Assembly (NCBI RefSeq): GCF_000183135.1
Contig: NC_014734.1
Location: forward strand, 1,364,001 to 1,428,000
Reading direction: 5' to 3'
DNA: 64,000 nucleotides
Origin: Paludibacter propionicigenes WB4
GTDB lineage: Bacteria > Bacteroidota > Bacteroidia > Bacteroidales > Paludibacteraceae
A model generated the notes under the pieces. It was given only the letters and a program-made list of their open reading frames with translations. It ran no database searches and had not been told where the DNA came from. Below, in pieces: positions 12,911 to 18,117 of this stretch. Both the position numbers and the translations under genes were made by a program. Position 1 is the stretch's first letter; each line of letters begins with the position of its first letter.

Positions 12911-13885
12911 TTAAGTAAGCATTTTTTGTTTCACAATTGATCCAATCTTCAAAAAATGCATCCAAAACTGCACGATTACTATTGGCAATATCTTATAATA
13001 CAATCTATACTTGAAAGCATGATCTTTCCAATTAATTCCGGATAAAATCAGTTTTACTTCTTTCTCATTTTTTCCTGTCAGATAATATGGCAACAAACCA
13101 TACAATGCCAGTTGTTCATATAAATATCGAAATTCCGGATTACTTTGTAATGCTCCATAATCGGTAAAAAGCATGTGCTCGTATGGTTCATATAACTTTT
13201 CACCAATGGCTCTATTTGCCAGTTCCACATCCTGATTATAGTTCGACAACGGTTTGTTTAAAATCACCACAGGATATTTTTGAACTACCCGAATCCACAA
13301 ATCAAAATCTTCACCGAGCTTCAATGTCGGTTTAAATCCATGTTCCGATTCAAAAATTGTTTTTCTGATAATCGTTGACCCTGTCCATAGCGGCATACAA
13401 AGTGTATTGGAGTAAGTTCTGCAGTAATTTATCTCTCCTTTTTTAAATGTCCTCTCTACTCCTACCGGAGCAATACGCTTTACTCCATTTTTTATCAGAA
13501 AATATCCACTACCATATATTCCGGCCTGAGGAAATTCTTCAATCAATAGCTTCATTTCTTCCAAATAGGTTGGTTCCCACCAATCGTCGGCATCCAGAAA
13601 AGCGATATAATCGTATTGTGCTACTTTTACTCCATTGTTTCGGGCAATGGAAACGCCCAAATTGCTTTGAGTTAAAACCCCCCATCCCCCTAAAGAGGGA
13701 GAAAAAGCCCCTAAATTTCCTAAAGGGGACTTAAAAAAAGTTTGTACAACATTCAGAGAATCATCCGTTGAACCATCATTCACAACAATCAGTTCAAACT
13801 CCCTATAAGTTTGAGAGAGCACCGAGTTTATGGCTTTTTCCACATACGGGGCTTTATTATAAAGAGGAATTATTACTGAAAACAA
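12911..13885 (-). CDS. Glycosyltransferase family 2 protein with an in-frame repeat insertion
   Basis: A GT-A family 2 glycosyltransferase. It opens FSVIIPLYNKAPYVEKAI, continues VVNDGSTDDS at residues 34-43 and has the metal-binding DAD at 98-100 in YIAFLDADDWW. Between the second strand and the GVSIARNNG helix, where relatives have about ten residues, it carries the odd stretch SPLGNLGAFSPSLGGWGVL (residues 53-71). The DNA there is an interspersed GGGG-rich repeat read in frame. The start is a TTG at 13883-13885; no ATG is available before the upstream stop at 13919-13921. The unusual start and the insertion raise the chance of reduced function, but the frame and the active-site motifs are intact. 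Confidence 0.85.
   Translation of the reverse strand: MFSVIIPLYNKAPYVEKAINSVLSQTYREFELIVVNDGSTDDSLNVVQTFFKSPLGNLGAFSPSLGGWGVLTQSNLGVSIARNNGVKVAQYDYIAFLDADDWWEPTYLEEMKLLIEEFPQAGIYGSGYFLIKNGVKRIAPVGVERTFKKGEINYCRTYSNTLCMPLWTGSTIIRKTIFESEHGFKPTLKLGEDFDLWIRVVQKYPVVILNKPLSNYNQDVELANRAIGEKLYEPYEHMLFTDYGALQSNPEFRYLYEQLALYGLLPYYLTGKNEKEVKLILSGINWKDHAFKYRLYYKILPIVIVQFWMHFLKIGSIVKQKMLT
13673..13737. repeat. GGGG-rich interspersed repeat inside a GT2 gene
   Basis: On the plus strand this stretch has CCCCCCATCCCCCTAAAG, then GGGAGAAAAAGCCCCTAAAT, then CTAAAGGGGACTT. It is read in frame by the GT2 gene. A related copy lies between the FabH-like and SDR genes at 36254-36361. The base composition differs sharply from the A/T-rich neighbourhood. 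Elements of this look are, to my knowledge, common in Bacteroidetes genomes. Confidence 0.75.
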
Positions 13886-14618: not shown

Positions 14619-15311
14619 TTAAACAATAACAGTACTTACTAAACGTGTCCAGGGTCCTGCAAGTTCGGGATGTTTGGTATTATACCAACGTAAGTAAATG
14701 TATAGGGATTGTGCAGAAACTCCCGAGCCCAGAGAAAGCGTAAAAGTAGCCCTTGTACTGATATTCCGATTAAGACCTACAGCATCGGCCGATTCGGGCG
14801 GAGTTTTTCCTACCATGTAAGCATATTGTACACAGTCTGCTTCATCAATAATAGAGGCACTCGAGCTTCCGTCTTCGCGACATTTAATCGTTACCGATCC
14901 ACCACCTAATAACTGAATAGATACATCAACTCCTACCTGAATAGGTTGTACTGCAACAGAACGTTTGGTTGATCCACTTTTGATATTAAAGGTTTTTAAA
15001 TCCACTACAGTTACATTAGCCGAAGCGGCTATTCGGTTCAATAAATGTTTCGACTGGTTTAAATCATTAAACTCGGTTATCAAATCCTGTAACTGGGCTA
15101 TTACAACAGTTGTACGAGTCTTTTCTTTGTCGCTGTATAAAACATACAAAGGATTCCAGCGGGTAACAATTCCGGTCAATAAAGTAAGTTCATCGTCTGT
15201 AATAGTTAAGCGTTCGCTATTCTTTGGTGTTCCGGCGTTTAAATAGTCTAACGCATTATTTACATACAAATTAAAATCAACAATTGCTTGGGGTACTCTT
15301 GAATTTGGCAT
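14619..15311 (-). CDS. Unknown 230-residue protein, candidate LytTR target
   Basis: I do not recognise the function. The protein has no signal peptide and no membrane segment. The first about 95 residues are helical (PQAIVDFNLYVNNALDYLNA, then DELTLLTGIVTRWNPLY and a long helix with VVIAQLQDLITEFNDL). The rest looks beta-rich, with GGGSVTIKCRED and a C-terminal SLYIYLRWYNTKHPELAGPW resembling Ig/fibronectin-like strands. Similar proteins of unknown role occur, as far as I recall, in other Bacteroidetes, often near cell-surface genes. It has its own promoter and terminator, so it is a single-gene unit. Four phased TGTGACAAA repeats lie just upstream of the promoter, and a LytTR regulator gene lies upstream in the same direction. 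Confidence 0.75.
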   Translation of the reverse strand: MPNSRVPQAIVDFNLYVNNALDYLNAGTPKNSERLTITDDELTLLTGIVTRWNPLYVLYSDKEKTRTTVVIAQLQDLITEFNDLNQSKHLLNRIAASANVTVVDLKTFNIKSGSTKRSVAVQPIQVGVDVSIQLLGGGSVTIKCREDGSSSASIIDEADCVQYAYMVGKTPPESADAVGLNRNISTRATFTLSLGSGVSAQSLYIYLRWYNTKHPELAGPWTRLVSTVIV

Positions 15312-15376
15312 ATCATTCTATATTTAAGGGTGAATAAATTCGGTTCTACCTAAACCAATCAGGAGAGAAACCGCAG

Positions 15377-15407
15377 CAAATATAGATTGTTGATTTTCAA
15401 AACAAAA
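15377..15407 (-). promoter_or_regulatory. Promoter of the unknown-protein gene
   Basis: On the minus strand a TATATTTG -7 box (complement of 15377-15384) lies 18 bp after a TTTTG -33 box (complement of 15403-15407). This fits the Bacteroidetes TTTG/TAnnTTTG promoter. The predicted transcript would have a leader of about 60 nt. Confidence 0.65.
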
Positions 15408-15423
15408 TACACACCAGTTACTT

Positions 15424-15494
15424 TGTGACAAATGCCAACTGAATTGTGACAAACAAAAAGAGGCTGTGACAAACGGTATATGAATAGTGACGAA
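15424..15494 (-). promoter_or_regulatory. Four phased direct repeats, candidate LytTR operator
   Basis: TGTGACAAA occurs at 15424-15432, 15445-15453 and 15465-15473, with a variant AGTGACGAA at 15486-15494. The start-to-start spacing is 21, 20 and 21 bp, that is two helical turns. The array starts 17 bp upstream of the -33 box of the unknown-protein gene. On the minus strand the third copy reads ACCGTTTGT, which fits the known LytTR-site pattern of 9-bp direct repeats spaced about 12 bp. Confidence 0.6.
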
Positions 15495-15524
15495 AGTTGA
15501 AGGAGGATAATCAATGGATAGTAT

Positions 15525-15846
15525 TAATTAACGTGAGTTCGATATAAGCAAACAGCTAAAAATCAATTATAAGTGGATTTAGAATCCTGAAAAGGATTCA
15601 ATGTGAATAACCGCGGGTGTAACCCGTGGTATTTGTACAAAACAATCAGAACCCCGAATGGGGGTTCAATATCACATATTTATATATTGAACCCCATTCA
15701 GGGTTCGCATTCAGGTTCTGTCTTTTCCACGGGTTACACCCGCGGTTATTCATATTCAAGTCCGTTCGACTGAGCTCACGCCGAAGCCTTCGGACTTGTA
15801 AAATAGTGAAATTCAAAAGAATCTTATATCGAACTCACGTTAATTA
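15525..15846. mobile_element. 322-bp MITE-like element with 24-bp inverted ends
   Basis: Bases 15525-15548 and 15823-15846 are perfect 24-bp inverted repeats containing AACGTGAGTTCGATATAA. Inside, a second perfect 25-bp inverted pair (15605-15629 and 15727-15751, core ACCGCGGGTGTAACCC) encloses a third, imperfect pair (15650-15672 and 15684-15705, core AACCCCGAATGG). The right part also has an AAGTCCG/CGGACTT pair. The whole could fold into one nested hairpin. No transposase is encoded. The right terminal repeat supplies the last six codons and the stop of the LytTR gene. Between 15312 and 15524 lie the promoter and operator of the neighbouring gene. Confidence 0.75.
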
Positions 15847-16678
15847 CTAATTCCTGCCATTTCTTTAAATTTCGTTTAAATGTTTTTCCGATGACTATTC
15901 TTTCATCTATTCCATCTATTTTTAAAAGTTTCGGATTTCTATCTAAATCCTCTCTGTTGACATACATCATATTCACCAAATAAGATTTTTGAACACGCAC
16001 AAACTGATTGTATGCCGACAATTGTTTTTCAGCATCCGATATTTTATAGCGCAGATGAATCTTTTTAGGAGAATTTTCGAGCATATAGTGTAGAAAAATA
16101 TAATTTTCGTCTGATTTTATAAGCAAAATATCCGTAGGAATGACAGTAAATTTATCAAGAGTAATTGTGTCCATTTTTCTATGCTGTTTCAATCTATACT
16201 TTTTATCACACCACAGCAAATACCCAATATAATACAAGAGAAAAAACAAACTGAAGCTAAATACATGTTTGATCGATTTGAATAATGAAAAAGCGTCAGC
16301 CGGATATTCCTCGTAAATATAAACAGTATAGAGCCAACTAAATACGCCGGCACATAGCACAACCAGAACAAACAAGACTCCCAATCTAAATACTGAGATT
16401 ATGCTCAACACTACCGGATAAATGATGTTTTGGGGAGTAAACAACAGACATAGACAGATTGTGACTACGTAAATGAATCCAAAGCCTGAAAGTTTAAAGA
16501 TTTTGTACCGATCCTGCCAGAGTGATATATTATAAGGTTCGGCATCGTACAGGAAAAAAGTTATGACTACAATGGCTGTAGTCGCAATAAGAAGCTGTAG
16601 TCGTTTTTCTTTCAATAAAGCAATAAATGAATATAACTGTTTCTGAACAACTATATTCAGTCCCTGAAAATCACTCAT
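15824..16678 (-). CDS. Membrane-anchored LytTR-family transcription regulator
   Basis: A transcription regulator with four hydrophobic helices at about residues 29-44, 65-82, 98-118 and 138-156, then a LytTR DNA-binding domain at 180-284. LytTR hallmarks are IPTDILLIKSDENYIFLHY, the FVRVQKSYLVNM segment matching the F-R-x-x-x-S-Y-L-V-N core, and IGKTFKRNL. There is no response-receiver domain, so any signal would be sensed by the membrane part. The start ATG at 16678 is preferred over a GTG at 16714. The last residues INVSSI and the stop are encoded by the right terminal repeat of the 322-bp element. A TATATTTG box precedes the gene. Its likely target is the unknown gene downstream. Confidence 0.88.
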   Translation of the reverse strand: MSDFQGLNIVVQKQLYSFIALLKEKRLQLLIATTAIVVITFFLYDAEPYNISLWQDRYKIFKLSGFGFIYVVTICLCLLFTPQNIIYPVVLSIISVFRLGVLFVLVVLCAGVFSWLYTVYIYEEYPADAFSLFKSIKHVFSFSLFFLLYYIGYLLWCDKKYRLKQHRKMDTITLDKFTVIPTDILLIKSDENYIFLHYMLENSPKKIHLRYKISDAEKQLSAYNQFVRVQKSYLVNMMYVNREDLDRNPKLLKIDGIDERIVIGKTFKRNLKKWQELVINVSSI

Positions 16679-16730
16679 AAAACAAACAAATAAATAATTA
16701 AAACCACAAATCACAGTTAAAATGACGCTA

Positions 16731-16738
16731 CAAATATA
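16731..16738 (-). promoter_or_regulatory. -7 promoter box of the LytTR gene
   Basis: The minus-strand TATATTTG lies about 53 bp upstream of the ATG at 16678. No convincing -33 TTTG box is seen at the expected distance, so activity may depend on an activator. Confidence 0.45.
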
Positions 16739-16916: not shown

Positions 16917-17115
16917 ATGGCGAAAGTAAAAAGCAGTGCGGCAAAAAAGAAAAGCCGTGCGGCGAAACAAAGAAGCCACACGGCCTTTTGAAATGGACAT
17001 ATAGCGGAAGAGAAAAGCCATACAGCTATTTGAAACTGACATGCGGCGGAATGGAAAAGCCATACGTCTATTTAGAACCGCCGTGCGGCGAAAGAGAAGT
17101 GCTACGTGGCTGTAG
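16917..17115. repeat. Degenerate 21/42-bp tandem repeat array
   Basis: About 200 bp made of units that begin GCGGCGAAA or a variant and contain AAAAGCCATAC. The first units are 21 bp long (boundaries near 16916, 16937 and 16958), then the period is 42 bp (about 16958, 17000, 17042 and 17084), the longer unit adding CTATTTGAAACTGACAT-like sequence. Short GCCG/CGGC palindromes recur. In one plus-strand frame each unit ends in a stop, so the array is not a long coding sequence. Units are too diverged and have no unique spacers, so it is not a CRISPR array. It fills the gap between the LytTR and GT10 genes. Confidence 0.75.
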
Positions 17116-17124
17116 AGAAATTTA

Positions 17125-18117
17125 TTATGAAATAATCTGAATGATTTTTCTTTCTAACTGTTGAAAACTGTTATATATTATTTCTGGAGCTTCGGCTTTT
17201 AAGCGAGCTTGAGACGTAAACCTTATAAACTCATTTTTATTTTTATACAAATACTCAATATCATTTAAAACCGAAGAATTATCGCCTTTCTTAAGAAAAA
17301 TAATAGCATCGGAGTTTAAAATATCTGGTTCCGGATTATTTTCTGCACCCCAGTAGATTGGGATACAACCGGAGTAGATTGCATCAAAAATCTTTTCTGT
17401 GACAAGTCCTTCAAAATTTGAGTTTTCTGGACAGAGATTGAATTTATATTTCTTCAAATACGCTCTTTTATCGTTATTGTACTTTAATAATAAATTTTCA
17501 TCATTGTGCATAAAAGTACTTGGACAATCTACTTTATCAATAGAATTAATCAAATCATAAAAGAACTTTCTATCTCCATTATAATCATTTCTGCAAATAA
17601 AAGAGCAAAATTTGTCTTTTACATCTATGTCTCTATGATATGACAAAGCTTGACATTTTTGTTTTATTATTTCGTAATTATCTTCCGGATCAAAATGTAC
17701 CATCATCCAAAAAGGGAAACGTAAATACTGAGGGTTGGTAATATAGTCAAATCCCAAAGATAAGGAAACAGATTGTTCCTGAATCAGCAAATCTTCATAT
17801 TGAGTCCACCAGGAGCCTTCATCATGAATATTCTCTGCAGTATAAAATAATTTAAATTTATCTTTATTCAGAGTTATAGCTTCTCTATATCCATTAGCGC
17901 CAAATATACTTAGTTTCTTTTTTGTGTATTTATGAATACCTACTCTATCCACGATGAATCTGTACAGCCAATGATTTGGAGTATGTTTTCGACTCAAGTA
18001 TGTATTCATGTCATAAATTAGAGTATTAAAGCACCTTACCTGATACTTGTTAGATTCTTTATAGTCTCTAAAATAATTTCTATATAATCTATATTTCTTT
18101 TTGATATTTGAACACAT
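17125..18117 (-). CDS. GT10 glycosyltransferase (alpha-1,3/4-fucosyltransferase-like)
   Basis: A family GT10 enzyme, which typically transfers fucose from GDP-fucose. The diagnostic donor-binding region is at residues 229-258: CPENSNFEGLVTEKIF followed by SGCIPIYWGAENNPEPDIL. Upstream segments FYTAENIHDEG (residues 91-101) and RFPFWMM (133-139) also match the family. No membrane segment is visible. A second GT10 gene lies at 20898-21863, with the acyltransferase and a GT2 gene between them; the two share all motifs but differ widely elsewhere. No GDP-fucose synthesis genes are in the window, so the donor must come from elsewhere or be another GDP-sugar. Confidence 0.9.
   Translation of the reverse strand: MCSNIKKKYRLYRNYFRDYKESNKYQVRCFNTLIYDMNTYLSRKHTPNHWLYRFIVDRVGIHKYTKKKLSIFGANGYREAITLNKDKFKLFYTAENIHDEGSWWTQYEDLLIQEQSVSLSLGFDYITNPQYLRFPFWMMVHFDPEDNYEIIKQKCQALSYHRDIDVKDKFCSFICRNDYNGDRKFFYDLINSIDKVDCPSTFMHNDENLLLKYNNDKRAYLKKYKFNLCPENSNFEGLVTEKIFDAIYSGCIPIYWGAENNPEPDILNSDAIIFLKKGDNSSVLNDIEYLYKNKNEFIRFTSQARLKAEAPEIIYNSFQQLERKIIQIIS

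Follow-up and report, generated by a model that had tools for sequence, protein, structure and literature searches.

Which regulator controls the gene at 14619-15311 on the minus strand, and by which DNA sites might it do so? The gene lies in a stretch of 64,000 nucleotides from Paludibacter propionicigenes WB4, the whole of which is called the window here and which corresponds to positions 1364001-1428000 of a single contig. It encodes a protein of 230 amino acids (in the following the target) without any hydrophobic segment, which belongs to an unnamed family with the signature RWYNTKHPELAGPWS. The original prediction was that the LytTR protein encoded next to it acts on the target through a set of direct repeats. 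On the basis of the sequence comparisons described below, it is quite probable that this membrane LytTR protein binds the four repeats and controls, most likely activates, the target gene.

Direct Repeats Upstream of the Target Promoter

The 9-bp sequence TGTGACAAA was found three times upstream of the target gene (15424-15432, 15445-15453, and 15465-15473), and a fourth copy is the variant AGTGACGAA (15486-15494). The repeats start at 15424, 15445, 15465, and 15486, i.e., at steps of 21, 20, and 21 bp, and the gaps between them are 12, 11, and 12 bp. Read in the direction of the target gene, i.e., on the minus strand, repeats 1 to 3 share the core TTTGTCACA and repeat 4 is the variant TTCGTCACT. 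Repeat 1 is the promoter-proximal one and ends 17 bp upstream of the -33 box TTTG (15403-15406). The latter is located 18 bp before the -7 box TATATTTG (15377-15384), which was read from the sequence and which we take to be of the Bacteroidetes type TAnnTTTG. The order on the minus strand is the LytTR gene, the repeats from 15494 to 15424, the promoter TTTG-N18-TATATTTG (15406-15377), and the target gene (15311-14619). The copy number, the steps, and the distance to the -33 box were verified as originally described, and the fit of ACCGTTTGT to the LytTR consensus holds for the third copy only.

The repeats are direct repeats of the LytTR type, i.e., of about 9 bp, 10-13 bp apart and upstream of the target promoter; the canonical LytTR site has been described as a pair of 9-bp direct repeats with a distance of 10-13 bp (PMC11347149). 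By itself, the 9-mer is common in the window, with 3 matches versus 0.80 expected, and at least 3 matches occurred in 6 of 100 shuffles. The spaced pair TGACAAAN{12,16}TGACAAA has its sole site in the genome at this place (two overlapping matches in the 3,685,504 bp scanned), and the reversed control pattern had no match in the same genome. The three-site score of the window was reached in none of 200 shuffles of the local sequence.

The LytTR Gene and an Inverted-Repeat Element

The gene at 15824-16714 (minus strand) encodes a protein with a LytTR domain (PF04397) at residues 191-286 (Pfam E 1.7e-10, 41.4 bits versus a cut-off of 22.6). At E 0.001 Pfam matched no other domain in this protein, and an MHYT domain (PF03707) was not found. 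Four hydrophobic segments, identified with a crude hydropathy threshold, precede the LytTR domain, in agreement with the predicted membrane LytTR gene just upstream. The product would be a membrane-anchored one-component regulator, and the signal would be sensed by its four-helix part. An ATG at 16681 may be the true start of the gene instead of the GTG at 16714. A gene for a separate membrane inhibitor protein of the LRS type was not found beside the LytTR gene, the neighbors of which are the target gene and a fucosyltransferase-like gene. Eleven LytTR genes are present in the genome, two of which adjoin two of the five target paralogues.

A MITE-like inverted-repeat element of about 330 bp (15522-15849) is situated between the regulator and the repeats. 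Its outer arms (15522-15548 and 15823-15849) have a length of 27 nt and are 96% complementary. The element has 38 matches in the genome, a number that includes partial matches and the other strand of the same copy, and other genomic copies have similar ends. In its small size, its terminal inverted repeats, and its presence in multiple copies it agrees with a MITE. The right arm carries the last codons and the stop codon of the LytTR gene. Because the element separates the regulator from the operator and has replaced the C-terminal end of the LytTR protein, the pair may be partly decayed. The element and the alternative ATG were absent from the original prediction, as was a phased array at 16918-17119 (see below).

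The module is flanked by two glycosyltransferase genes, a fucosyltransferase-like gene at 17125-18117 and a family 2 gene at 12911-13885 (Pfam), and is apparently placed within a surface polysaccharide region.

The Target Family and Its Exchangeable Regulators

Searches with the target protein yielded no match in PHROGs or NCBIfam at E 1 and none in Pfam at E 10, and the best E value of a PDB profile search was only 0.046. An Rfam search resulted in one sub-threshold miRNA match only (E 0.54). Protein searches revealed 74 relatives of the window protein and 332 relatives of a paralogue, 120 of the 332 being among the matches listed. With a single sequence as query, the family was found in 15 of 200 genomes of the taxonomic family; with an alignment as query, the numbers were 17 of 48 genomes at the genus level, 17 of 393 at the order level, and 3 of 395 at the phylum level, the own genome being counted in each case. 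The own genome itself has five matches, two of which are partial alignments. No phage or plasmid record matched a target paralogue, which was used as query in place of the window protein. The locus sample comprised 110 places besides the window; 93 of them and the window formed the first 94 loci, and the other 17 were added later. A 207-amino-acid protein of the own genome (L181:14026-14649) has a C-terminus that by eye resembles the end of the target, a likeness that no tool reported; its gene lies beside a phased array and an AraC-like gene.

The subfamily of the window, read from the tree order, consists of 37 loci. At 25 of them a regulator gene was found at most 720 bp upstream, namely a LytTR gene at 8, an AraC-type gene at 6, and a divergent LuxR-type gene at 11; these 25 loci do not represent independent events, because some are orthologues (L144/L145 and L139/L143). 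All eight LytTR assignments have Pfam support, and the AraC and LuxR groups were defined by single-linkage BLAST clusters and verified by Pfam for L089, L139, and L145. The LytTR modules are the window, L088, L093, L094, L095, L100, L102, and L105, and their LytTR genes are located 149-638 bp upstream in the same direction. As read from the gene neighborhoods, the type of regulator is exchangeable in the target family between LytTR, AraC, and LuxR. With the same crude threshold, the numbers of hydrophobic segments in the other LytTR proteins are two (L088), four (L093), five (L094), three (L095), one (L100), two (L102), and one (L105). As the counts among the relatives vary from one to five, a four-helix sensor may not be general to all LytTR modules.

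Conservation of the Predicted Operator in LytTR Modules

The upstream regions of 34 modules were scanned for three sites at steps of 20-21 bp within the 260 bp before the start codon, using a leave-one-out weight matrix, the training sites of which had been chosen by eye before each locus was left out. A significant three-site chain was present in all eight LytTR modules (scores 11.0-29.2, shuffle p 0-0.015), which are not independent because all of them stem from four genomes of one genus. The shuffle p was 0 for the window, L093, L100, L102, and L105, 0.005 for L095, 0.010 for L088, and 0.015 for L094, the last two being the weakest LytTR modules. None of the 26 AraC, LuxR, or no-regulator modules contained a significant chain (best score 7.8, smallest p 0.055), and LytTR and other modules differed with a Mann-Whitney p of 5.5e-8. 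L100, which was outside the training set, had a score of 17.3. The length of 260 bp is a post hoc choice: the region was widened for all 34 modules because the candidate sites of L094 are located at -243 to -203. A 200-bp version of the scan yielded chains in 7 of the 8 LytTR modules (p 0-0.005), L094 being missed, and in none of the 26 others. An earlier pass had revealed chains at 20-22 bp in eight LytTR modules, some of which run through other repeats.

The core common to most LytTR modules, summarized from the sites of the scan, is roughly TTNRTCMCA. The distance from the start of the last site to the TAnnTTTG box is 39 bp in L088, L093, and L102, 40 bp in L094, L100, and L105, and 41 bp in L095; for L093 the fourth site was used, and in L088 the third site, which is at the 39-bp place, is degenerate. 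The last site of the window starts 49 bp before the -7 box, about one helical turn further away than in the seven relatives. The conserved sites are a phylogenetic footprint of the predicted LytTR operator. A search for homologous LytTR-target pairs elsewhere had been proposed as a check, and repeats of this kind and spacing turned out to be kept in every one of the eight, which supports the predicted action of the neighboring LytTR protein through the repeats. The two LytTR modules of the own genome differ in their core (TTTGTCACA in the window and GTGTCC in L100), which points to cognate pairing.

Putative Mode of Action and Comparison with Known Systems

The LytTR domain would bind the four direct repeats at 15424-15494. 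The repeats are about two helical turns apart, would lie on one face of the DNA just upstream of the -33 box, and the bound regulator would control the gene at 14619-15311, most likely by activation. Activation is suggested by the position of the repeats upstream of the -33 box, and it is clearly favored over repression. Most LytTR regulators bind upstream of the -35 and activate, as described in passages of PMC11347149. The alternative that the LytTR protein uses the repeats to repress the target has a precedent in CoxC of Afipia carboxidovorans, a characterized membrane regulator of the MHYT-LytTR type that represses from a site over the -35 and for which three repeats at two-turn spacing are required (PMC11347149). 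However, the CoxC operator overlaps the -35, whereas the nearest repeat of the window lies clear of the -33 box, and the last sites of the relatives, 39-41 bp before the -7 box, are at the usual activator position, which makes repression of the target unlikely.

A second alternative is that the operator is of the LytTR type, but is bound by another of the eleven LytTR proteins of the genome, so that the adjacency of the pair would be a relic. The inverted-repeat element between the pair and the altered C-terminus of the LytTR protein would be in line with such a history. Against it, the operator type occurred in every module with an adjacent LytTR gene and in none of those without, and in the own genome each of the two LytTR modules has a core of its own. 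Binding by another LytTR protein is rated as quite improbable, and the adjacent LytTR protein is retained as the probable regulator.

RcoM1 is a soluble haem sensor. Its operator resembles that of the window in having three direct repeats with spacers of 12-13 bp (quoted in PMC11347149), but the core is TTCNNGCA and the targets are cox genes. CoxC shares with the window protein the membrane segments followed by a C-terminal LytTR domain, and also the direct repeats at two-turn spacing (PMC11347149). In contrast, CoxC has an MHYT domain, seven transmembrane segments, a repressor role, and three repeats overlapping the -35 (PMC11347149), while the window combines four hydrophobic segments and no MHYT match with four repeats upstream of the -33 box of an unrelated target. 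The LRS systems HdrRM and BrsRM likewise join LytTR with a membrane part, and their 9-bp direct repeats just upstream of the -35 mostly have a distance of 12 bp and tend to lie 10 bp before the -35 (PMC6193735). Unlike the window, where one fused protein and four repeats at the neighboring target gene are found, the LRS encode the membrane inhibitor as a separate protein, and their repeat pair serves autoregulation (PMC6193735). Bacteroidia are enriched in transmembrane transcription regulators (PMC10269533), and for the Bacteroidales the paper titles listed by a literature search named no worked-out LytTR operator. The proposed mode of action is of a known kind; new are the four-repeat array at the 14619-15311 gene and the target.

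Phased Arrays on the 5′-Side of Family Members

The second phased array of the window, mentioned above, covers 16918-17119 and thus precedes the LytTR gene; it has a period of 42 bp (2 × 21) and matches only itself in the genome. Autocorrelation revealed arrays with periods of 21, 42, or 63 bp on the 5′-side of family members, periods of 22/44 bp being rare (two loci of one genome). A score of at least 20 within 2.5 kb upstream was reached at 80 of 92 loci, each with at least 300 bp of sequence, whereas control lags gave 11 of the same 92, and the downstream 2 kb gave 6 of 89. Removal of the heptamer and dinucleotide tracts of L100, L149, and L168 lowered the count from 80 to 77 of 92. Ten of the 17 later places were testable and eight had an array, one of them a weak AT-rich one, which results in a total of 85 of 102 testable family loci with a phased array. 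As a control, 13 of 320 random 2.5-kb windows, all from the own genome, carried an array. At 59 loci no more than 450 bp separate the end of the array from the start codon (median distance 117 bp). Any repeat score of at least 16 in the 450 bp upstream was found for 28 of 195 neighbor genes of the same loci versus 71 of 92 targets; nine of the 195 were at lag 21 or 42, and several of these nine genes encode the regulators of the modules themselves.

All 6 AraC modules and 2 of the 8 LytTR modules (window and L094) have their array upstream of the regulator gene. In 7 of 11 LuxR modules (L090, L101, L144-L148) it is found beyond the 3′-end of the divergent LuxR gene, at a distance of more than 1 kb from the target. 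Therefore, it cannot be an ordinary promoter element in the latter, and the idea that the array is an ordinary promoter operator everywhere is untenable. The 12 array-less loci of the 92 include five LytTR modules (L088, L093, L095, L102, L105) and three LuxR modules (L096, L121, L153). A coding origin (21 bp equal 7 codons) was rejected as a general cause: the variation between units, analyzed for 57 arrays with a lag-21 score of at least 30, had a codon phase at p<0.05 in only 2 of 57, five of the 57 have no open frame on either strand, and periods of 22 and 41 bp exist.

Palindromic units were weakly enriched versus shuffles, with p<0.05 in 9 of 57 arrays and a median p of 0.50, and pair covariation within arrays had z>2 in 12 of 73; both are suggestive, but not decisive. 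The likeness of arrays declines with protein identity. Among pairs from different genomes, 20 of 21 exceeded 99% of the null at protein identities of at least 80%, 49% of 37 at 65-80%, 19% of 155 at 55-65%, 16% of 232 at 45-55%, and 1-2% below; of 45 same-genome pairs with less than 55% identity, none had alike arrays. This covariation is equally expected from plain descent and is thus no proof of recognition. L103 and L104, from one genome, are two copies of a 1.8-kb unit of array and target, which are 98.3% identical and have different flanks; clear terminal repeats or a target-site duplication were not seen by eye.

Taken together, the array changes with its protein, stays at the 5′ outer edge of the module despite an intervening regulator, and can be duplicated with the gene. 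A tentative reading, possible rather than probable, is that the array is a functional partner in the module, i.e., a protein-bound platform with a locus-specific sequence and not a by-product of replication slippage, and that LytTR, AraC, and LuxR regulators would be plug-in controls.

BrickBuilt of Porphyromonas gingivalis also consists of tandem short-period repeats in a Bacteroidales genome (PMC4596501). However, BrickBuilt is one 23-nt unit inside a dispersed MITE (PMC4596501), whereas the units of the present arrays differ at most loci, have a 21/42/63-bp period, and are tied to one gene family.

Phased Arrays Elsewhere in the Genome and at DUF6261 Genes

A scan of 800 kb of the own genome at a distance from the target loci revealed 24 arrays with a score of at least 25, 12 of them at 21/42/63 bp, of which at least two look like heptamer tracts, and 7 at 41/61 bp. 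It was therefore rejected that the arrays are exclusive to the target family. Arrays with a similar 41-bp unit (AGCCATCTCGACAACCGC-like, by eye) were seen at L196:13717-14128, L218:6116-6489, and L219:8909-9299; located at different genes, they are a dispersed repeat family of the own genome. Long heptamer tracts (7/14 bp) are present between the LytTR gene and the operator of L100. Heptamer repeats of another sequence have been reported for this species, and the TAACTGA heptamers given in passages of that work are a different repeat from the arrays (PMC4679880).

Two of the 24 arrays precede genes of DUF6261 (PF19775), a family with 11 matches in the own genome; the DUF6261 genes considered here are L188:10935-11672, L207:1686-2417, and L221-L252. 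An array was found upstream at 18 of 32 DUF6261 loci, 10 of 11 in the own genome, whereas control lags gave 2 of 32 and the downstream side 3 of 30; the scan used broader lags (20-22, 41-43, 61-64) and covered 32 of 33 places from 20 genomes, 10 of the 32 being clipped by contig ends. DUF6261 resembles the target family in that both are multi-copy Bacteroidales proteins with phased arrays upstream, of 41-42 bp in the case of DUF6261, but it is a separate Pfam family, and as the target has no Pfam match, the two are treated as unrelated at the level of sequence models. Arrays phased at two helical turns thus repeatedly accompany uncharacterized protein families, at least two of which are seen here. 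If the doubtful reading of the array as a module partner were correct, the family of the window and DUF6261 would be at least two multi-copy families that travel with their own two-turn array, which is likewise conceivable, but not the likelier case. Among the titles listed by the literature search, which covered open-licence papers, none described an association of arrays with a gene family.

The abundance of arrays, both in the 800 kb and at the family loci, might suggest that the four repeats are one more phased minisatellite without a tie to LytTR, but this is very improbable, because the repetition is confined to the core of 9-10 bp, with spacers that are unlike each other, the four repeats have a lag score of 10 versus a shuffle mean of 7.7 while true arrays reach 281, the core has a fixed promoter distance in LytTR modules and not in the 26 others, and the window contains a true array separately. 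The four repeats are retained as the predicted operator of the LytTR protein.

Significance

The locus had been proposed to be a self-contained three-part unit. Regulator, operator, and target are indeed found together, but this description is too narrow, as the inverted-repeat element interrupts the unit, an additional phased array lies upstream of the regulator, and the regulator type is exchangeable. The larger finding is a module of array, exchangeable regulator, and target. The window offers a testable LytTR regulator-operator pair for the Bacteroidales, and the parallel LytTR pairs within one genome are natural material on the change of LytTR specificity. The combination of exchangeable regulators with a phased array at most loci, the latter also a feature of DUF6261, would represent an association between genes and arrays of a new kind and would give a lead to the function of two blank families.
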